Source of the DNA: a virus
Reading direction: 5' to 3' (one strand)
DNA: 64,000 bases
Virus record (IMG/VR): IMGVR_UViG_3300037069_000769
Coordinates: 38,322-102,321 of that record
A model generated the notes under the pieces. It saw nothing but the letters and a program-made list of their open reading frames with translations, ran no database searches and was not told the origin of the DNA. The first letter of the stretch is position 1, and each line of letters opens with the position of its first letter. Made by a program: the position numbers and the translations under genes. This document shows positions 30,633 to 58,657 of this stretch, piece after piece.

Positions 30633-30645
30633 TTCTTACCTTGTC

Positions 30646-30715
30646 TAAGTCGTAGCTCAAACAGGCAGAGCGTCGGAGAATTCCGAGGTTGTGGGTTCAA
30701 ATCCCACCGGCTTAG
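30646..30715 (+). tRNA. tRNA-like gene with shortened anticodon loop
   Basis: A full cloverleaf except for the anticodon loop: acceptor TAAGTCG/CGGCTTA, D stem GCTC/GAGC with a GG-bearing loop, anticodon stem TCGGA/TCCGA, T arm GTGGG-TTCAAAT-CCCAC, discriminator G. The anticodon loop is GAAT, four bases instead of seven, and lacks U33; reading a 4-bp stem gives a six-base loop AGAATT. Total length is 70 nt. GAA (Phe) is the only familiar triplet, but charging and decoding by this loop are doubtful. Confidence 0.6.
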
Positions 30716-30718
30716 GTT

Positions 30719-49361: not shown

Positions 49362-49938
49362 CGATCACCCTAGCAAGCATCCTCTTACTGCGAAGGTGTA
49401 TGAGTATATTTGTAATGGGCATTTGCCTGCTACGAATGCTCCAAGACTTCGCGGAGCAACTGATGAGGAGATTGCTGCTGCTTTTCCGGACGTGGCCCAT
49501 AATAATGTGCGATGGGCTCGTTGGAGTATGACCAAGAACGGATACATCCTTGATTCGGGAATCCGTAGGGCCAAGTTGAAGAATCGCGGGCAGGCAAAAG
49601 TTTGGGTAAAGGCTGATGTGCCTGAGAAGAAGCGAGGCCGAGGTGTAATCAAGCCTCAGTCGATCTTCAATGAGATGTTGGGCATCATCCTGATGTATCC
49701 GCAAAGTGAGTGGCCTCTTCTGCTGGAGCAGTTAGCCTCTGACTTCAAATTGAACTTTGATATGGATGATTTCAGGAAGAGGCTACAAAGTGTTGGAGGC
49801 ATTCAAACTAGCGGAGACTTTGAAGTCCGCTCCGTCAGTTCCGGAGGCGGAGGTGAGATCATCCTCATCGACCCCCGTAACTCTGAAGGATCGCGAAGCT
49901 CCCAAGATGCTGGAGATCAAGAACCCAGCTCTGCTTAA
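49294..49938 (+). CDS. Hypothetical HTH-like protein
   Basis: 214 aa from GTG 49294 with GGAG upstream. KHPLTAKVYEYICNGHL...ATDEEIAAAFPDVAHNNVRWARWSMTKNGYI is a helix-turn-helix-like region; the C-terminus is Ser/Gly-rich and acidic. Overlaps both neighbours. Possibly a DNA-binding protein. Confidence 0.5.
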   Translation: MKPSEKIRQMVQQARDSGEVVPDDHPSKHPLTAKVYEYICNGHLPATNAPRLRGATDEEIAAAFPDVAHNNVRWARWSMTKNGYILDSGIRRAKLKNRGQAKVWVKADVPEKKRGRGVIKPQSIFNEMLGIILMYPQSEWPLLLEQLASDFKLNFDMDDFRKRLQSVGGIQTSGDFEVRSVSSGGGGEIILIDPRNSEGSRSSQDAGDQEPSSA

Positions 49939-50890
49939 CGTTACGAAAGCAGTTAATGCTTGGGTTGATTCGTGGCCCAACCAGAACTCCTACACAGATT
50001 TCCTTCGAGCATCATCTCTGCATGGGGTGTGTCCGAGGGAGTTTGTGTTTAATTATTGGCAACCGAAGGCTAATCGCAGTTTCGACGCTAAGTCCCGTGT
50101 TCTCATGTCTATCGGGACTCATTTGCACTCATTGAAGCAGAACCAGGTTCTTGGACCCTTGGGCATTCTATGGGGCACTTGGAAGTACGTGGGCAGCTCT
50201 GAGGCTTTGAAGACCCACGAAGGGTTCCATCCTGACCCTGATGAAGCTGTATGGGCGATGGTACATGAGAAGGAGCAGAAGTGGGAGTATGTTGAGCCCG
50301 AGGTGTGGGATGAGAAGTATAGAATCAAAGGGCACATTGACGGGTTGATTGATGTTGGTAGGTTAGAGTGGTTGAATTCCAATCTGCCTCTGCTGAAGAA
50401 AGACCCGATTTCAACTTGCAAACGTTTGCACGCGATGGCTCCTACACAGCGAATGCTGTTTGAATTGAAGACAACTGGTAGTTTTGTCTTTGACAAGTTG
50501 GTAGCACCCAAAGACATTGCTGACTACTACCAGATGCAGGCGTGTATCTACCAGAGATTGATGGGCGTGTCTCATACTCTGTTCTGGTATGTGAATCGAG
50601 ATACTGCGGCGTCCAAGTTGTTGTTGTACGCTTACGATGCTGGCTGGTGGCGGGATGCTACAAGAAAGGCTAGGATCATTTGGGAGAGTATTAGAGATGA
50701 AGTCCTGCCGGAGGCATTGATGCCCTGTCACTCTCCAACTGATAAGCGTGCTAAGGAATGTGTGCACTGTCCAGTGTGCTTCGGGAAGTTGGACTTTAAG
50801 AAGTACGTTGAGTCGGGTAAGGAGAGAGCTGCTAAGGAAGGTCGAAAGTTGCTCGATTTGCGAGGGATTAGTTTTGAAACGCCTGCGTGA
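49790..50890 (+). CDS. PD-(D/E)XK nuclease (Cas4/RecB-like)
   Basis: 366 aa from GTG 49790, preceded by AGGAAGAGG; ATG 49907 is a possible shorter start. Catalytic pattern GHIDGLID with Asp184, then FELKT with Glu225 and Lys227, and Gln in ADYYQMQACIYQRL. Three cysteines at the C-terminus (CVHCPVC) plus an earlier Cys suggest an iron-sulphur cluster as in Cas4/AddB types. It lies in the recombination block. An exact palindrome at 50417 reads T-C-K-R-L-H. Confidence 0.72.
   Translation: MLEAFKLAETLKSAPSVPEAEVRSSSSTPVTLKDREAPKMLEIKNPALLNVTKAVNAWVDSWPNQNSYTDFLRASSLHGVCPREFVFNYWQPKANRSFDAKSRVLMSIGTHLHSLKQNQVLGPLGILWGTWKYVGSSEALKTHEGFHPDPDEAVWAMVHEKEQKWEYVEPEVWDEKYRIKGHIDGLIDVGRLEWLNSNLPLLKKDPISTCKRLHAMAPTQRMLFELKTTGSFVFDKLVAPKDIADYYQMQACIYQRLMGVSHTLFWYVNRDTAASKLLLYAYDAGWWRDATRKARIIWESIRDEVLPEALMPCHSPTDKRAKECVHCPVCFGKLDFKKYVESGKERAAKEGRKLLDLRGISFETPA
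50417..50430. repeat. Palindrome copy 21 (inside a gene)
   Basis: Exact copy in the nuclease gene, read as C-K-R-L-H. Confidence 0.95.
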
Positions 50891-51341
50891 TATAATCGAT
50901 CAGATAGAAGACACCGTTAAGGTGTTGCGGTCGTTTTATCTCTACGCCAGCATTAAACCTCAAGCTAAGCAGTCAGTGGCGTTTGGGAAAGGGCATGGGT
51001 TTACTCCACCCAAAAAGCGGGCCTACTTGAAGAATTTGGGTAAGAAGTTGGCAGAAAGTTACCCCACTCAAATGAAGGTATGTGGGCTCGTTCGTCTGAC
51101 TGTCCTGCTTTCGTTTCCTTGGCGAGAGACCGATTGTAAGAGTTTGCTGTGGGCGTTAATGGAAGAATCGCCTGATGTTGATAATCTCTACAAGCCTGTT
51201 GCTGATAGCTTGCAGGAGATATGCTTGAAGAATGACTCTCAAGTAGTGTCAATTCGGGTGCAGAAGATTAGGTCCGAGGATGTCGGAATTCTAGTCAAAG
51301 TCGAGGAAGTTATGGCAAATAGAGCAATTCAGCTAGGTTAG
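50874..51341 (+). CDS. RusA-like Holliday junction resolvase
   Basis: 155 aa from TTG 50874 (GAGGG upstream), overlapping the nuclease stop by 17 bases. VAFGKGHGFTPPKKRAYLKNLG at the N-terminus and PDVDNLYKPVADSLQ (D-x-D-N-x2-K) with a following DDSQV-like segment (NDSQVVSIRVQK) fit the RusA family. These enzymes cut four-way junctions before packaging. The start is the least certain part. Confidence 0.68.
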   Translation: MKRLRDIIDQIEDTVKVLRSFYLYASIKPQAKQSVAFGKGHGFTPPKKRAYLKNLGKKLAESYPTQMKVCGLVRLTVLLSFPWRETDCKSLLWALMEESPDVDNLYKPVADSLQEICLKNDSQVVSIRVQKIRSEDVGILVKVEEVMANRAIQLG

Positions 51342-51991: not shown

Positions 51992-53026
51992 ATGGCCAAG
52001 AAAACGAAAAGTTCGTCCGGCGTGGTGCCGGCTGACAAGACCCTGCCCGCAACGGGCGAAACGAAGGAAGCGAGTACGAAGATGAGTGACGAAGTGACCA
52101 CTACCCCTGCTCCCGAAGTGGCCGGCGAGGCCGAAGTGCTGACTCCGGAAGCTGAAACGAAGATCATCACGACCGGCAAGGCGACCGATCTGCTCGCCGA
52201 AGGTGGTGGGGTGTTTCTCCCGTCGGCCCTGAAGGGCGTGACCGATTTGGCCCAGCGTCAGGAGATGACCCGCCAGTACATCAAGCAGGCGGCTCAGGTC
52301 AGCGATCGGCTGAACCTCGTGGCCGGCGAGCTGCTGTTCGAGTGTGCCAAGAACGCCTACTGGAAGGAGTGGGAGTTCACCGACGAGAAGGGCGAGACCC
52401 GCAAGTACGCCAAGTTCGAGGAGTACTGCGATCACGAGTTCTCGCTCGGCTACCGGAAGGCCATGTACCTGATCTCGATGTACGAGAAGTTCATCGTCGA
52501 GCTGGACCTGCCCATCGACGTGCTCGGAGGTCTCGACTGGTCGAAGGCCAAGGAACTGGTGCCGGTCATCACGAAGGAGAATGCGGCAGACCTGCTCGAC
52601 AAGGCCAGCCACATGACCTTCAAGCAGGTGCAGGAACTGGCGAAGTCGATGAAGGCCGCGGCGAAGACCGGCACTGCCGGTGCTGCGACCGGAGCGTCCG
52701 AGCCCGCCGAGGTGAAGGAGAAGATCGCTTTCACGGTCCCGAAGGAGAAGGCCGAGACGATCCGTGCGGCACTCGCTCTGGCCGAAAGCCTGTCCGGGTC
52801 CGCTGATCCGGGAAGTCAGCTCGATTTCATCTGCTCCGACTTTACGGCCTCTTCCAGCGGCATGGGCACCGATGGTGCTCTCTCCAAGCTCGATGTCATC
52901 ATCAAGAACATCGAGCGGACGTTCCACGTCAAGCTGGAGATCACCAGTGTCGATGCCGATCACTACAAGACGGCTGCGGCTCCCGAAGTCCCCGCCGAGG
53001 GCGAAGTGCTCACTCCCGGTGCGTAG
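51992..53026 (+). CDS. Abundant-looking DNA-associated protein, DUF3102-like core
   Basis: 344 aa, ATG with AGGAGAG upstream. Clearly GC-richer with G/C-ending codons, like the capsid gene, suggesting strong expression. Residues about 110-165 (LLFECAKNAYWKEWEF..YAKFEEYCDHEFSLGYRKAMYLISMYEKF) resemble the DUF3102/ParB-linked helical domain that reads as a substrate- or DNA-binding helix bundle. Related APEV.GEAEVLTP and APEVPAEGEVLTP segments stand near both ends. Role unknown; a chromatin-like or regulatory role is possible. Confidence 0.55.
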   Translation: MAKKTKSSSGVVPADKTLPATGETKEASTKMSDEVTTTPAPEVAGEAEVLTPEAETKIITTGKATDLLAEGGGVFLPSALKGVTDLAQRQEMTRQYIKQAAQVSDRLNLVAGELLFECAKNAYWKEWEFTDEKGETRKYAKFEEYCDHEFSLGYRKAMYLISMYEKFIVELDLPIDVLGGLDWSKAKELVPVITKENAADLLDKASHMTFKQVQELAKSMKAAAKTGTAGAATGASEPAEVKEKIAFTVPKEKAETIRAALALAESLSGSADPGSQLDFICSDFTASSSGMGTDGALSKLDVIIKNIERTFHVKLEITSVDADHYKTAAAPEVPAEGEVLTPGA

Positions 53027-53627: not shown

Positions 53628-53635
53628 ATCTCTCT

Positions 53636-53663
53636 TGACTTTTTGTCGCCGATGTGCGATAAT
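53636..53663 (+). promoter_or_regulatory. Promoter of the TGCGATA type
   Basis: TTGACT (53636-53641), 16 bases, GATAAT (53658-53663) preceded by GTGC. Drives the SWIM-MoxR gene. Confidence 0.8.
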
Positions 53664-53718: not shown

Positions 53719-55239
53719 ATGGCTGCAACCCCAATTAAGATGAACAAGGTGGTGGAGCTTTATATCCGGACGGGAGAGAGAACGTTCAAAGCCTTCCGCC
53801 TGATCGCATGGAAGTGCCGGGCATCTGCCGACTTGGAGGTCTTGTCTGTTGACGGAGACAAGGTCACAAAGGTCTCCTGCTCATGTGTGAAGTTCAAGGC
53901 CGAAAGTAAGTGCGATCACTCTGCTGCCCTGATCGGAGGTGTGTCTTATGCGGCCACGTCTCACGATGGGTGGAGTGAGATTGAGACTGTCGGCACGATG
54001 CGGGCCACCCTCAAGCGAACTGCCCTGATCGCTGACGATGTTCACGGTCTCGGAGTGCTGGCTGTTGTTCACCCGTCGCTGCCCGATCTGAACTTGGTGA
54101 ACTTTGGCTGGTTGATGTCGAACGCTGTGACTGAGGGCATTCGAGCCCAGACTGGCACCCTACGGCCTCAGCGGTTGTTTGACGAGAGCGTGCTGTCTGT
54201 TGAGAAGGGCTTTACGTTCGAGCATGCTGAGGTGACCGCCAAAGGTAAAGCCTGTACGGCGACTCAGTCCGAGGATGACGTTAAGCACATCATTACGGAG
54301 TTCGGGTTGTCTGAGTTCAAAGGATTTGCTCACGTCTCGGGAGGGATTCCGATGGGTGAGTCCTCTGAGCCCGAGCCTCCGGCCAGCAAGGCCCCGAGCA
54401 AAGCTAAGCCGTGGAACGACATCAAGCGTCCTGATCCCAGTACGTTCTACGTTGATCGGGATACGTGGACCCAGATGGTCTACGGTATGTTGAACGGCAA
54501 GAACATTCTGCTGACCGGACCGTCGGGGTCTGGAAAATCTGAGTTGTGTTATCAGGTGGCTGCTGCCTGCGGTCGCAAGCTGGAAGCGTTCAACATGGGG
54601 GCCATGAGTGAGCCTCGCACCAGCCTGATCGGTAACACTCACTTCGACCGAGAGAAGGGGACATGGTTTGCTATGTCCCGGTTTGCCCGAGGTGTGCAGA
54701 CGCCTAACGGAGTAATCTTGTTGGACGAGATGACCCGCTCTGATCGTGGAGCGTTCAACATTCTGCTGCCGCTGCTGGACCGTCAGGGCTATTTGGCTCT
54801 CGATGAATCCGAGGATGCGACAGTGATTCGCAAGGCTGAGGGTGTGTGCTTCCTCGTTACTGCGAATATCGGTATGGAGTACACTGGCACTGAAGCGATG
54901 GACAAGGCGGTGCTGGATCGCAATGCCATCGTGATTGACATGCAGTTTCCGCCTGCCGCCAGCGAAGTGCAGGTCTTGCTGGGTCGATGTCACGGTCTCT
55001 CCAACTTGCTCGCGAAGCGGTTGGTGGACTTGGCCGAGAGCCAGCGGCAACTGTGGCGTTCAGGAGACATGCAAACGGCGATCAGCACCCGAATGCTCAT
55101 TGAGGCTGGTGAGCAGATTTCGCGGGGAATGGACTTCAAGTTGGCCTGTAGGTTCTGTGTCGAGAATCACTTCTCCAACGAGGGTGATGACGACTCGGAG
55201 CGAACCAAGGTCAAGCAGCTTGTTCAGAAGGGCGGCTGA
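53719..55239 (+). CDS. MoxR-type AAA+ ATPase with N-terminal SWIM zinc finger
   Basis: 506 aa, ATG with AGGATTAGGAG upstream. A SWIM-type finger near residues 54-67 (Cys54-x-Cys56-x8-Cys65-x-His67), then a spacer with Pro/Ala/Lys, then an AAA+ core: Walker A GPSGSGKS (267-274; Lys273), Walker B LLDE (Asp336-Glu337), sensor-like FLVTANIG, and a late arginine-containing stretch. MoxR/CobS ATPases act as unfoldases that work with VWA partners; the next large gene is such a partner. A SWIM finger on a MoxR protein is not something I know as usual. Confidence 0.78.
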   Translation: MAATPIKMNKVVELYIRTGERTFKAFRLIAWKCRASADLEVLSVDGDKVTKVSCSCVKFKAESKCDHSAALIGGVSYAATSHDGWSEIETVGTMRATLKRTALIADDVHGLGVLAVVHPSLPDLNLVNFGWLMSNAVTEGIRAQTGTLRPQRLFDESVLSVEKGFTFEHAEVTAKGKACTATQSEDDVKHIITEFGLSEFKGFAHVSGGIPMGESSEPEPPASKAPSKAKPWNDIKRPDPSTFYVDRDTWTQMVYGMLNGKNILLTGPSGSGKSELCYQVAAACGRKLEAFNMGAMSEPRTSLIGNTHFDREKGTWFAMSRFARGVQTPNGVILLDEMTRSDRGAFNILLPLLDRQGYLALDESEDATVIRKAEGVCFLVTANIGMEYTGTEAMDKAVLDRNAIVIDMQFPPAASEVQVLLGRCHGLSNLLAKRLVDLAESQRQLWRSGDMQTAISTRMLIEAGEQISRGMDFKLACRFCVENHFSNEGDDDSERTKVKQLVQKGG

Positions 55240-55250
55240 TCGGCTACGTT

Positions 55251-55264
55251 TGCAAACGTTTGCA
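55251..55264. repeat. Palindrome copy 24
   Basis: Exact copy one base before the ATG at 55266. Confidence 0.95.
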
Positions 55265-55265
55265 A

Positions 55266-55349
55266 ATGTTCGTGATCGCATATCTGATTGGAATGATTGT
55301 GCTTGCAGGATTGTGGGCAGTTCTTGGAGTGCGGATCAGAAAACTCTAA
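55266..55349 (+). CDS. 27-residue transmembrane peptide
   Basis: MFVIAYLIGMIVLAGLWAVL followed by GVRIRKL: one transmembrane helix and a basic end, the shape of small phage membrane peptides. The ATG follows the palindrome by one base, without a Shine-Dalgarno. It lies between the two partner genes. Real translation is likely but unproven. Confidence 0.45.
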   Translation: MFVIAYLIGMIVLAGLWAVLGVRIRKL

Positions 55350-55368
55350 AAAACGCTCGCAACTTCTA

Positions 55369-55397
55369 TTGACAATCAGAGTACAGCTTGCGATAAT
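55369..55397 (+). promoter_or_regulatory. Promoter of the TGCGATA type
   Basis: TTGACA (55369-55374), 17 bases, GATAAT (55392-55397) preceded by TTGC. Drives the HExxH-VWA gene. Confidence 0.82.
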
Positions 55398-55439
55398 ATA
55401 TCGGTAGTCGATTCCCGCAACCCCGCAGGAGCAGGTATT

Positions 55440-58226
55440 ATGTCGTCGTGGTTCACTGAGGTTCGAGCAGTCCTGCTGGATGATTATCATCTGAAGTGGG
55501 ACAAGCTTGCCACGAAGGAGCGGGCTTATCTCGCCAAGCTTCGATCTGAGGGTTACTCTCCGTACGATGCGGCTCACAAGCTGTTCATGTCGGAAGAAGT
55601 TCTCGTTGAGGACGAAGCGAAACTTATCAGCGAGTTGACCGAAGAGTACGCTGTGATCTCCGAGTCTGACGAGGAGACAGGGTACATTGGCGATCTGTTG
55701 GGTCGGCTGTCAAAGTACGAGGGCAGCGATACTAAAACCTTGTCCTCTGCGTGGACTCGGGGCAGGTCTAAGAAGAAGGAGCCGCGAGGTATCGTTCTTG
55801 ATCTCATTAAGATCAAGAACGGTGTCCGCAGTCTGTTGCGGGCTCACGGCGTCCCGAAGAACCTCAAGTTGGAGCTTGCCAACATTACGGCAGGTGCCAG
55901 CGGCATGGCCGGATTCCATGACATTGGGACTTGGCGAAGGCCGTTCATCTTCCTTGACACGAAGGTGTACGACTCTTGCGATGCCCGCGAAGTGTACGAT
56001 GTGTACTGCGGGATCGGGCTGCATGAGGCCAGCCATATCAAGCATACCCGAACAATGTATGAGCGGTTAAAGTCCGGAAAGTTGGACAGTACTACCCGCC
56101 GTGCAATGTGGGAAGGCTTGTTCGAGGACGAGCGGATTGAGGAGTTGGTTCGACAGGAATCGCCCGGTTATGCTGGGTATCTCCAGATCATGCGTCGGGC
56201 CTTGTTTGAGAAGAAGGCGTTTGGTTGTGCCATGCGTAAATGGCATAACAAGATGACTGACCTTGACCGAGTGTGTTTGCTGATCTTCGGCCTCATTCGG
56301 TGTCCCTACCTGCTCAGCCCTGAGATGAAGGAATGGCGGACTCTCAAAGGTGAGTGTGTTTTCGAGAGTCTAAAGAAGTTGTTCCCGACGATCCCCGAAT
56401 CCGAAAGGATCGTGGAGATTTACGGTGAGCGACTGGAGAAATTCTGGACTCGCCTCCAAGCTGAATACAAGGAGCTGGCTAAGGCCCGTAAGGAGGAACT
56501 CGATAAGCTTCGGGGGAAGGACAAGCCTGCGAAGGATGACAAATCCGGGGAGTCTGCTGAAGGCACCCTAGTACCTACTGACACAGGGGAGACTGCTGAT
56601 GGACGAGTCAGCGATTCGGATGGTGGGATCAAAGGCGACAGTTCGGGAGCTGACTCCGGAGACGGAAGTTCTAGTGGTGACGACAGTGAACGGGGAGCCT
56701 CATCTGATTCCGACGAATCAGAAGAACTTGGAGATAGTGTTGGAGAGGGCGAAGATGATGCAGACGAGACCTCTGAACGAGCGGCCGAGAGAGTTGATCG
56801 AGGCGGAGTACGCGAAGGCTGTGAGACAGCCGGAAGTGACGTTGGCGACACAGGGGAGAGAGAACCGGAAGGATCGCTTGGCGAAGAAGGCGAGACTGAA
56901 GCGGGAGAGTTCGAGGAAACTCTCGAAGGCAGCCCGTCGGATGAAGAAGATGGTGAAGTAGACGATGAGCTTGAGCGGTTGAGAATGCAACTCGATGCCG
57001 ATGAGCGGGACGCTGAATTCTCTCGCCTTGCTGGTGAGTTGCATTCGATCATCAAGACGGCTGGGGATCGAGCTGCACGTCGAGCTTCTATGGATTTAAC
57101 GGAGGCCATGAAGGGCGGCAAAACCCTTAAAGACCTCTTCCCCGAAGTAGGGGTAGGTGGCGATGCCCGAGAAGCCTTGGAGAGAGCCTTCTCTGACCGC
57201 GAGGATGAGGGTAGATTCTCCATCGAAGATATTCGGCACATGATGGAGGTATTGGACGTAGTTACTGACTCGCTTGATGCTGAAGAAAGTACCGAGCTTG
57301 AGAAGGTGACGAAAGAGCGGATCGAATTCGGGGACGAGTGGTCTGCTGATGAGCGTCGAAAGTCCGAAGGTAGTCGATCTCACGCCGAGAAGCTTGACCG
57401 CAGAACTGTTATCATCCATCCGCAAGTGACTCAGTATGAGAAAGATAAGTATAATGCCTATCTCGACAAAGTTCGAGGTCAGGTCATGCGGATGCGGGGT
57501 GTTTTCCGTCTGAGATTGGGTAAGCGTCTCTACCAAGAGAATGAGCGGATCGAGGGCCGTCTCCATCGTCGGAAACTCAGTCAGATTATGAGTACCGATC
57601 GAGTGTTCTTCCAGCGTAATGAGAAGCATGCTCACGGGTTGGCCATCTGTTTGCTGCTCGATGAGTCAGGGTCGATGGGTAATGCCGGGCCGCACCCCAG
57701 TCGCAGCCCCAACCGAGCCCAGATTGCTCTCGAAGTAGCTATCCTGATCTCCGAGGCTCTTAAGGGACTTCCGGGTGTTGAGCTTGAGGTGTACAGCCAT
57801 GCAAGTTGCGGTGACTCTGACATGGACTGTCAGGTCAAGTATCTGTACGGTAAGAATAATCCCAAGTTGCAGGCTATAGCGGGCTTCGAGTCTGGGGCTC
57901 AGAATTACGATCATATGGCCCTGAAGACTGCTGGCGACCTGTTCATCGCTAACACTCAGAACACCAGCAGACTGATGATTGTCTTGTCCGACGGATCACC
58001 TTGCGGCTACATGTACGGTGGGGCAGTTGCCAACCGGCAGACTCGACAGGCCGTTCAGAATCTGGAGAAGCGTGGGGTCAAGGTGATGGGAGTAGCCATC
58101 CACGATTACAACGCATCCGCGATCTACGGGAAGAATACACTGAAGTTCCTTGACCTGTCTGACCTTATCAACCGCATGAGGCGGCTGGTGGTTCAGGTGA
58201 TTAAGCAGAATTCGTCGCTCGAATGA
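55440..58226 (+). CDS. Giant HExxH-VWA protein, partner of the MoxR ATPase
   Basis: 928 aa, ATG with GCAGGAG upstream. Residues about 150-330 form a metallopeptidase-like domain: HEASH (His195-Glu196-x2-His199) and downstream FEDERIEE with Glu229 or Glu231 as likely third ligand. About 360-545 is a long Ser/Asp/Glu-rich acidic region. After a helical part, residues about 735-925 are a von Willebrand A domain with MIDAS DESGS (Asp741-Ser743-Ser745) and VLSDGSP. The order matches CobT-like/DUF2201 partners of MoxR ATPases. Confidence 0.78.
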   Translation: MSSWFTEVRAVLLDDYHLKWDKLATKERAYLAKLRSEGYSPYDAAHKLFMSEEVLVEDEAKLISELTEEYAVISESDEETGYIGDLLGRLSKYEGSDTKTLSSAWTRGRSKKKEPRGIVLDLIKIKNGVRSLLRAHGVPKNLKLELANITAGASGMAGFHDIGTWRRPFIFLDTKVYDSCDAREVYDVYCGIGLHEASHIKHTRTMYERLKSGKLDSTTRRAMWEGLFEDERIEELVRQESPGYAGYLQIMRRALFEKKAFGCAMRKWHNKMTDLDRVCLLIFGLIRCPYLLSPEMKEWRTLKGECVFESLKKLFPTIPESERIVEIYGERLEKFWTRLQAEYKELAKARKEELDKLRGKDKPAKDDKSGESAEGTLVPTDTGETADGRVSDSDGGIKGDSSGADSGDGSSSGDDSERGASSDSDESEELGDSVGEGEDDADETSERAAERVDRGGVREGCETAGSDVGDTGEREPEGSLGEEGETEAGEFEETLEGSPSDEEDGEVDDELERLRMQLDADERDAEFSRLAGELHSIIKTAGDRAARRASMDLTEAMKGGKTLKDLFPEVGVGGDAREALERAFSDREDEGRFSIEDIRHMMEVLDVVTDSLDAEESTELEKVTKERIEFGDEWSADERRKSEGSRSHAEKLDRRTVIIHPQVTQYEKDKYNAYLDKVRGQVMRMRGVFRLRLGKRLYQENERIEGRLHRRKLSQIMSTDRVFFQRNEKHAHGLAICLLLDESGSMGNAGPHPSRSPNRAQIALEVAILISEALKGLPGVELEVYSHASCGDSDMDCQVKYLYGKNNPKLQAIAGFESGAQNYDHMALKTAGDLFIANTQNTSRLMIVLSDGSPCGYMYGGAVANRQTRQAVQNLEKRGVKVMGVAIHDYNASAIYGKNTLKFLDLSDLINRMRRLVVQVIKQNSSLE

Positions 58227-58657
58227 CCAAGCGTGATGGACATCGACTGAGTGTGTGGATTCCAAAGGCAGACGAGTGGATGTTGCGGACTATGGACCGC
58301 CTTCGCAAGTCTGCCGAGGAAGCTGGTATCCCTGTCACTGAGGGAGAGTTGGTAAGATTGGCGTTGGAGGAGTACCTGCTGCCCAAAGCTTCAGATGGTG
58401 ATGTTGCAGAGTATGAAAGTAAGAGCAAGACTCCGCCTGCTCCCAAGGGGAACAAGCGGATGATTGTGTTCCGCAAGGAATTCGCCGAGGTACTTGCTAA
58501 ACTGGATCGGATCGTCCAGATGAAAACGCTCTCCGGAATATCCACCAGCTTTAGCTACGAAGTAGTGCGTCTAGTTCGTAACGCATTAACCCGTACCGTA
58601 ACGGGCTCCGATCTTGACCGATCAATCCTGAGTGATTCCAGTGCTGATAAACCTTGA
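58223..58657 (+). CDS. Ribbon-helix-helix-like protein
   Basis: 144 aa overlapping the previous stop (ATGA). HRLSVWIPKADEWMLRTMDRLRKSAEEAGIPVTEGELVRLALEEYLLP has the strand-helix-helix layout of ribbon-helix-helix repressors, and KRMIVFRKEFAEVLAKLDRIVQ looks like a second such unit. It is a candidate DNA-binding regulator. Confidence 0.5.
   Translation: MTKRDGHRLSVWIPKADEWMLRTMDRLRKSAEEAGIPVTEGELVRLALEEYLLPKASDGDVAEYESKSKTPPAPKGNKRMIVFRKEFAEVLAKLDRIVQMKTLSGISTSFSYEVVRLVRNALTRTVTGSDLDRSILSDSSADKP

Follow-up and report, generated by a model that had tools for sequence, protein, structure and literature searches.

The window analysed here, the final 64 kb of the 102,321-base virus record IMGVR_UViG_3300037069_000769, carries two adjacent genes on one strand: gene A, which encodes a MoxR ATPase with an N-terminal SWIM-like CxCxnCxH motif, and gene B, which encodes a HExxH zincin-like domain, an acidic linker and a VWA domain. 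The reading that we favour, with a probability of roughly 0.55, is that the two proteins form a machine that uses ATP to remodel other proteins, that it includes a zinc-dependent domain, probably a peptidase, and that it works on the replication-recombination apparatus of the phage. The pair belongs to the two-gene cluster already described as viral cobST, as a variant with a SWIM fusion; this fusion is new, and within the favoured reading the pair is not a cobaltochelatase. An initial annotation of the window had described both genes, with Lys273 in the ATPase and Glu196 of HExxH, a further Glu, an acidic linker and a VWA domain with a metal-ion-dependent adhesion site (MIDAS) in its partner. 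The coordinates hold, and each of these motifs was found again at the same residues (Table 1).

Gene A is a MoxR ATPase with a SWIM-like motif

Gene A matched the Pfam models AAA_5 (2.6e-13, 50.6 bits against a cut-off of 22) and CbbQ_C (2.4e-12, 47.3 bits, cut-off 20.6), and its matches among PDB sequences were midasin, CobS, CbbQ and NorQ. The AAA+ domain runs from about residue 240 to the C-terminal end, with LLDE at residue 334. An AlphaFold model of the protein had a predicted local distance difference test (pLDDT) score of 81.8 overall and of at least 90 across most of the ATPase; the folds closest to it were NorQ and CbbQ (Z 22-25, ~250 residues), and the next family was McrB (Z 18). 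Because the Pfam matches, the PDB sequence matches and the closest folds agree, gene A is placed in the CbbQ/NorQ/CobS branch of the MoxR ATPases. With the CobT/NorD-related VWA domain of gene B, this bears out the MoxR-VWA machine proposed in the initial annotation.

The three cysteines and the histidine of the CxCxnCxH motif, together with HExxH in gene B, are invariant in all seven SWIM-fused proteins compared (the window protein and six relatives, 32-43% identical to it). Loci fetched with the alignment of these seven carried the pattern in 15 of 18 cases. Among 424 open reading frames (ORFs) of 300-1000 amino acids from the relatives' loci it occurred seven times, and the ORF listing likewise has seven, all of them SWIM-fused ATPases, with one contig counted twice. 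Shuffling gene A produced it by chance in 5 of 2000 sequences. No Pfam model, SWIM included, matched the motif region in nine motif-bearing proteins at E values up to 10, a search that can easily overlook zinc fingers when they are short and divergent, and the N-terminal third of gene A had no Pfam match either. The SWIM zinc finger claimed earlier is seen as an invariant motif, and "SWIM" is used here as a name for the CxCxnCxH motif only. Two related loci have an additional free-standing ORF, with a CxCxnCxH of its own, after the gene for the SWIM-fused ATPase and before the one for the HExxH-VWA protein (L262, 7519-8109; L264, 7519-8133).

Gene B carries a conserved HExxH site

Gene B matched Pfam VWA_2 at 3.6e-5, slightly below the curated cut-off, and a five-row profile of its phage homologues reached CobT chain 9uka_G at 3.6e-29 and NorD at 3.0e-8. 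Single-protein scans of viral contigs found no relatives, and a profile of the HExxH domain by itself found no match among PDB sequences. Since HExxH turned up by chance in 83 of 2000 shuffled gene B sequences, the motif on its own is weak evidence; the case for the motifs is carried by their conservation and not by their presence.

Conservation was assessed in 99 non-redundant viral relatives, all of them complete ORFs of at least 500 amino acids, which were left from 132 such ORFs after 33 near copies had been dropped. His195 and Glu196 are kept in 71 of the 99, and in these proteins His199 and Asp230 are present throughout (71/71 each) and Glu229 in all but one (70/71). In the other 28 relatives Gln, Asn, Leu and further residues occupy the HExxH positions, and positions 229-230 mostly read Asn-Thr, with the MIDAS retained. 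All 34 representatives reached via the ATPase gene, and so not selected for HExxH, possess it. Conservation in homologues, which the initial annotation had put forward as a test, is thus seen in most viral relatives and in every representative fetched by the ATPase. In a tree calculated with the N-terminal columns excluded, the window protein and the six SWIM-clade proteins group together with a support of 100, and the HExxH state changes about four times, two of these changes being forced by supported branches. Glu196 would be the catalytic base and not a metal ligand, and its invariance points to chemistry beyond metal storage.

Three further samples are to be read with their selection in mind. 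A locus set fetched by patterns that include HExxH gave 60 representatives, 59 of them with the VWA pattern and 32 with HExxH; the 64 rows of alignment A5 are mostly HExxH-bearing members, whose invariance is not independent evidence; and the cellular loci, fetched by a pattern beside the site, are a biased sample in which HExxH occurs in 73 of the 79 that have a VWA ORF. The nine named phages in our data (MT835482, Bacteroides phage BS162P1, LR756508, ICP2, P-RSM4, Mel-JY01, CRP-810, SSU5 and RHph_Y2_11) all have HExxH and, by alignment, the Asp; the Glu is present in eight, and ICP2 has Val there. The homologue in cyanophage P-RSM4, which is annotated "peptidase", has HEVGH and EDARIE. Contigs of gut Clostridia (L175-L252) recurrently encode a 624-residue ATPase and a HELGH-VWA protein of ~750 residues, possibly on mobile elements.

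The HExxH domain is predicted to be zincin-like

We modelled residues 96-352 of gene B, aligned with 63 relatives, using AlphaFold. The model (pLDDT 93.2, predicted TM score 0.91) shows a pair of helices at the N-terminus and three strands, together with one helix that carries HExxH and one that carries Glu-Asp. The top eight rows of a Foldseek search against the PDB were selecase/jannalysin and DNA-protein-crosslink protease (E 0.17-0.40). On realignment the top fold was the zincin-like 3e11 (Z 8.2, 101 residues, 3.5 Å), followed at Z 5-7 by selecase, the crosslink protease, Ste24, abylysin, jannalysin, M48 (3c37), BlaR1 and HtpX, and metallopeptidases, identified by title or by the identity of the named protein, fill 20 of the 24 rows with the highest Z. 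Selecase, BlaR1, Ste24 and HtpX are HExxH peptidases. Z values of this size can arise by chance; we find them persuasive because they agree with the HExxH motif.

The predicted domain resembles the minigluzincins and the SprT/M48-type metallopeptidases (selecase, abylysin, DNA-protein-crosslink protease, HtpX) in its HExxH with a downstream Glu and in its closest folds, but the sequences are unrelated, with 4-17% identity in the fold alignments, and the site in gene B is embedded in a VWA protein that has an ATPase of its own. In the viral library the top fold matches were VWFA and CobT-labelled phage proteins, with SprT-like proteins further down. CobT chains found by sequence were absent from the fold-search matches, perhaps because the library ends in April 2026, and a profile comparison of the HExxH domain with one genuine CobT was weak (hhalign P 0.06), which makes any homology between their N-domains conjectural.

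The two genes mostly stay together, often near replication genes

Of 80 loci fetched by the ATPase, 60 contain the partner, 6 lack it with at least 3 kb on both sides and 14 end too near to tell; the corresponding figures for 80 loci fetched by gene B are 72, a single exception and 7. The partner gene is present in 14 of 14 SWIM loci. That the two genes remain together in relatives, the other test named in the initial annotation, therefore holds for most of these loci; in Microcystis phage Mel-JY01 they are ~13 kb apart.

The pair in the window is surrounded by UvsX, a Cas4-like exonuclease, RusA and thymidylate synthase. Genes for replication, recombination or repair fall inside the fetched flank in 7 of the 9 named phages: UvsX before the pair and an exonuclease after it in BS162P1 and MT835482, a primase and a helicase in ICP2, gp46/47 before and gp45/44/62 after in P-RSM4, endonuclease V in CRP-810, ligase and DNA polymerase III in SSU5, and ligase and RepC in RHph_Y2_11. 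No replication-type neighbours were seen in the flank of Mel-JY01, nor in the part of the LR756508 flank that was looked at. UvsX lies within 10 kb of the pair in 11 of the 11 SWIM-clade records searched.

A planctomycete-assigned contig from an Isosphaeraceae metagenome-assembled genome (L174, 3488-6956) encodes a cellular pair whose ATPase region is 43% identical and whose partner has HEVGH. At the N-terminus of this ATPase a domain like that of phrog_17202 (9.1e-10), the family of the gene upstream of gene A, replaces the SWIM-like region. Because of this fusion and of its constant upstream position (Table 1), the phrog_17202 gene may be a recruiting partner or third component of the system. 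The pair was present in 1 of 45 Isosphaeraceae genomes, as expected of mobile acquisition.

A model for the pair

Going by homology, gene A would assemble into a hexameric AAA+ ring like those of CbbQ, NorQ and CobS, and gene B would dock on this ring in the way that NorD docks on NorQ, through the VWA domain. According to the NorQD cryo-electron microscopy study (PMC13036017), the VWA finger lies in the hexamer pore and the linker is stretched by ATP turnover, and we infer the same coupling here because gene B shares its order of parts with NorD. The zincin-like domain at the N-terminus, which would be the working end and is attached through the acidic linker, would be brought to a client protein, and ATP turnover would twist and stretch gene B and so remodel that client. 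The H-E-x-x-H...E-D site most likely hydrolyses the client; hydrolysis is favoured over metal storage because the HExxH glutamate is invariant. The CxCxnCxH domain of gene A probably recruits clients or DNA, and the client is probably a phage replication-recombination protein, or a host protein that blocks that complex. What the data show directly is the domain composition, the conservation of the motifs, the linkage and surroundings of the genes and the fold class of the predicted model; the ring, the docking and the twisting are carried over from homologues. Zinc binding and peptidase activity are unproven suppositions, and so are the client and the link to DNA, both guessed from where the genes lie and from the presence of the SWIM-like and phrog_17202 domains.

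A bolder proposal, which we offer tentatively and think rather less likely to be true than false, is that viral cobST as a whole works at the replisome as an AAA+ metalloprotease machine and removes or cuts proteins trapped on DNA. It would be the phage counterpart to the division of labour between p97 and SPRTN, in which a ring motor with a CxCxnCxH DNA- or protein-binding finger feeds a zincin protease. If true, thousands of viral "vitamin B12" annotations would be wrong and the "peptidase" label of cyanophage core genes would be right. Should gene B prove to be a zinc hydrolase that has an AAA+ ring as its motor and lies next to replication genes, the ecological inference about B12 would fail, and a large class of phages would carry a dedicated ATP-driven protein-processing machine.

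Several observations weigh against a remodelling peptidase at the replication apparatus. The site is absent from 28 of the 99 viral relatives, so the machine can work without it, and the coupled loss of HExxH and Glu-Asp rests on few events. No Pfam model covered the HExxH region in the 64 members tested. The fold matches are weak, with a Foldseek E of 0.17 at best and Z values of at most 8.2, which are also reached by models without a clear match, and HExxH is found in iron oxygenases too, which rank lower in the same fold lists. The proximity to replication genes is given as raw counts, without a background rate for random genes, and outside the SWIM clade UvsX is at least 11 kb away in 5 of the 7 records that have both genes and within 10 kb in 2.

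Known systems and alternative readings

Closest to the pair is viral cobST, which PMC8651126 (PLoS Biology) describes in tailed viruses as adjacent genes for a CobS-like ATPase and a CobT-like VWA protein. Cyanophage P-RSM4 has the pair. The window pair differs in the N-terminal SWIM-like fusion of gene A and in a longer gene B with a linker of ~188 residues. The same paper reads the cluster as a cobaltochelatase that borrows host CobN and calls the "peptidase" label on the viral CobT-like gene mistaken, and viral cobS and cobT have repeatedly been counted as vitamin B12 auxiliary metabolic genes, also among marine cyanophage core genes (PMC8651126, PMC9503304 and PMC11705849). On that reading gene A and gene B would play the parts of CobS and CobT, take over the CobN of the host and increase vitamin B12 for nucleotide synthesis that depends on it. 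There is kinship in the VWA domain of gene B and its preceding helices, which are related to CobT, in the adjacency of the genes and in a weak similarity of gene A to CobS, but the latter scores 36.8 bits with TIGR01650, far below the cut-off of 558.55. The CobT model TIGR01651 matched the Caulobacter control and nothing in the whole virus record; PF06213, the CobT N-terminal family, matched genuine CobT (Sphingomonas plasmid) but neither gene B nor seven relatives. CobN (PF02514) was found in 0 of 34 virus records, which may be fragments and leave host CobN outside their scope. Ribonucleotide reductase of any class is scarce (7 of 34 records; 0 of 13 in the SWIM clade), and the viral proteins keep HExxH whereas the genuine CobT examined, a single protein, does not have it. 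On the failure of the CobS and CobT models, the lack of CobN in the 34 records and the genuine CobT without HExxH, we reject membership of the cobaltochelatases; the published reading is improbable for this pair, whose B12 function is unsupported, and our comparisons suggest that the B12 label of the viral relatives is wrong for most of the family. CobT/CobS-like pairs also occur on many 110-kb Acinetobacter and other plasmids, and the one that was read (L282, 2888-6199) has lost HExxH.

A metal insertase or activase like NorQ-NorD or CbbQ-CbbO, which serve metal insertion and Rubisco activation, would instead use HExxH to hold a metal that ATP-driven stretching delivers to, or removes from, a phage or host metalloenzyme. 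NorQ and CbbQ are the closest folds to the ATPase, gene B has the same order of N-domain, long linker and VWA domain, and PMC13036017 describes how NorQD loads nitric oxide reductase with iron through a twist of the linker in NorD. A storage site, however, needs no HExxH glutamate, yet all 71 of 71 retain it; the N-domain of gene B differs in its zincin-like HExxH; and no conserved client gene was identified. We consider this account unlikely. In a further alternative the HExxH domain would be a metal enzyme that does not hydrolyse, for instance an iron oxygenase, with the ATPase as its power source or gate. The Fe2+/pterin enzyme SnPolE and a HExxH oxygenase appear among the weaker fold matches, but metallopeptidases rank higher throughout, and we give the idea very little credence. 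The initial annotation had linked the pair to the MoxR-VWA ternary conflict systems; the pair would then be an anti-defence or immunity module. The general resemblance of MoxR plus VWA holds, and PMC7159879 notes rare metallopeptidase effectors in such systems. Against this, bpMoxR scored 22.7 bits with a cut-off of 27, PADLOC matched gene A only weakly, as an ATPase, and did not match gene B, no third component was seen nearby (four neighbours have no Pfam match, in a search by Pfam only), and the position among replication genes is conserved across unrelated phages. We rejected this candidate on the bpMoxR score and the PADLOC result, and the link to conflict is very unlikely.

The E. coli yehLMPQ cluster has a separate MoxR ATPase, VWA and SWIM genes side by side, with two CxCxnCxH motifs in YehQ and a MIDAS in YehP. 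It differs in that YehL was not matched by gene A in BLASTP, YehP matched gene B only at 2e-4, and HExxH is absent. Our literature searches found nothing tying minigluzincins to phage, a SWIM domain to YehQ, or a SWIM zinc finger to bacteriophage or cobalamin.

Other features of the locus

The initial annotation had assigned each gene its own promoter. The sites exist (Table 1), but the scanned region holds 11 matches to the -35/-10 pattern against 10.0 in shuffles, so separate promoters are suggestive only; a search for the promoter pair in relatives gained nothing. Two elements between the genes fared less well as parts of the system. The palindrome (TTTGCAAACGTTTGCAAA) is real, but the window has 31 copies of it when up to 3 mismatches are allowed, against none expected, and 27 exact copies of its core TGCAAACGTTTGCA; they recur about every 2 kb, for the most part where two genes meet. 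It is absent from the loci of 11 relatives. Given this genome-wide spread and its absence from relatives, we rejected it as a component. The dispersed element looks like a phage-wide operator, and its core resembles LacI/PurR-type sites. A related phage (L255, 1-13470) has a different palindrome, CGCACACGTGTGCG, in 4 copies within 13.5 kb, perhaps a phage-specific variant of a similar element. The 27-residue hydrophobic ORF at 55266-55349, proposed as a membrane peptide, is present in the window, but a similar ORF was found in none of the 10 SWIM-fused relatives checked, and it was discarded as unconserved.

Table 1. Features of the pair and its surroundings, in window coordinates.
Feature	Position	Strand	Basis
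Gene A: SWIM-like motif and CbbQ/NorQ/CobS-type MoxR AAA+ ATPase, 506 aa (amino acids)	53719..55239	+	AAA_5, CbbQ_C, NorQ/CbbQ folds
CxCx8CxH (SWIM-like) motif, gene A residues 54-67, CSCVKFKAESKCDH	53878..53919	+	C54, C56, C65, H67
Walker A GPSGSGKS, gene A residues 267-274 (K273)	54517..54540	+	Invariant in alignment A7
Gene B: HExxH zincin-like domain (predicted), acidic linker, VWA domain, 928 aa	55440..58226	+	Profile, motifs, model
HExxH (HEASH), gene B residues 195-199 (Glu196)	56022..56036	+	H, E, H in 71/99 viral relatives
Glu229-Asp230, candidate third metal ligand and neighbour	56124..56129	+	70/71 and 71/71 HExxH-bearing proteins
Acidic linker, gene B residues 353-540 (~188 residues)	56496..57059	+	34% Asp+Glu
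MIDAS DESGSM, gene B residues 741-746	57660..57677	+	D741, S743, S745, D851 in 99/99
Upstream gene (phrog_17202), possible partner	51992..53026	+	Homologue upstream of ATPase in 18/18 SWIM-clade loci, near copies included
Cas4/RecB-like exonuclease (context)	49757..50890	+	phrog_2506, 2.6e-16
RusA-like resolvase (context)	50748..51341	+	phrog_140, 2.1e-18
Promoter-like site upstream of gene A	53635..53663	+	10/12 consensus bases; ends 55 bp before the gene
Promoter-like site upstream of gene B	55369..55397	+	11/12; TG before -10; ends 42 bp upstream; best in scanned region
Intergenic palindrome (31 dispersed copies in all)	55249..55266	.	Not pair-specific

The gene that follows gene B (58223-58657) appears by eye to be ribbon-helix-helix-like, and an annotated ribbon-helix-helix gene also follows the genuine cobT in locus L281. 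Elsewhere in the window, positions 30645-30716 hold a tRNA-like gene whose anticodon is unreadable.

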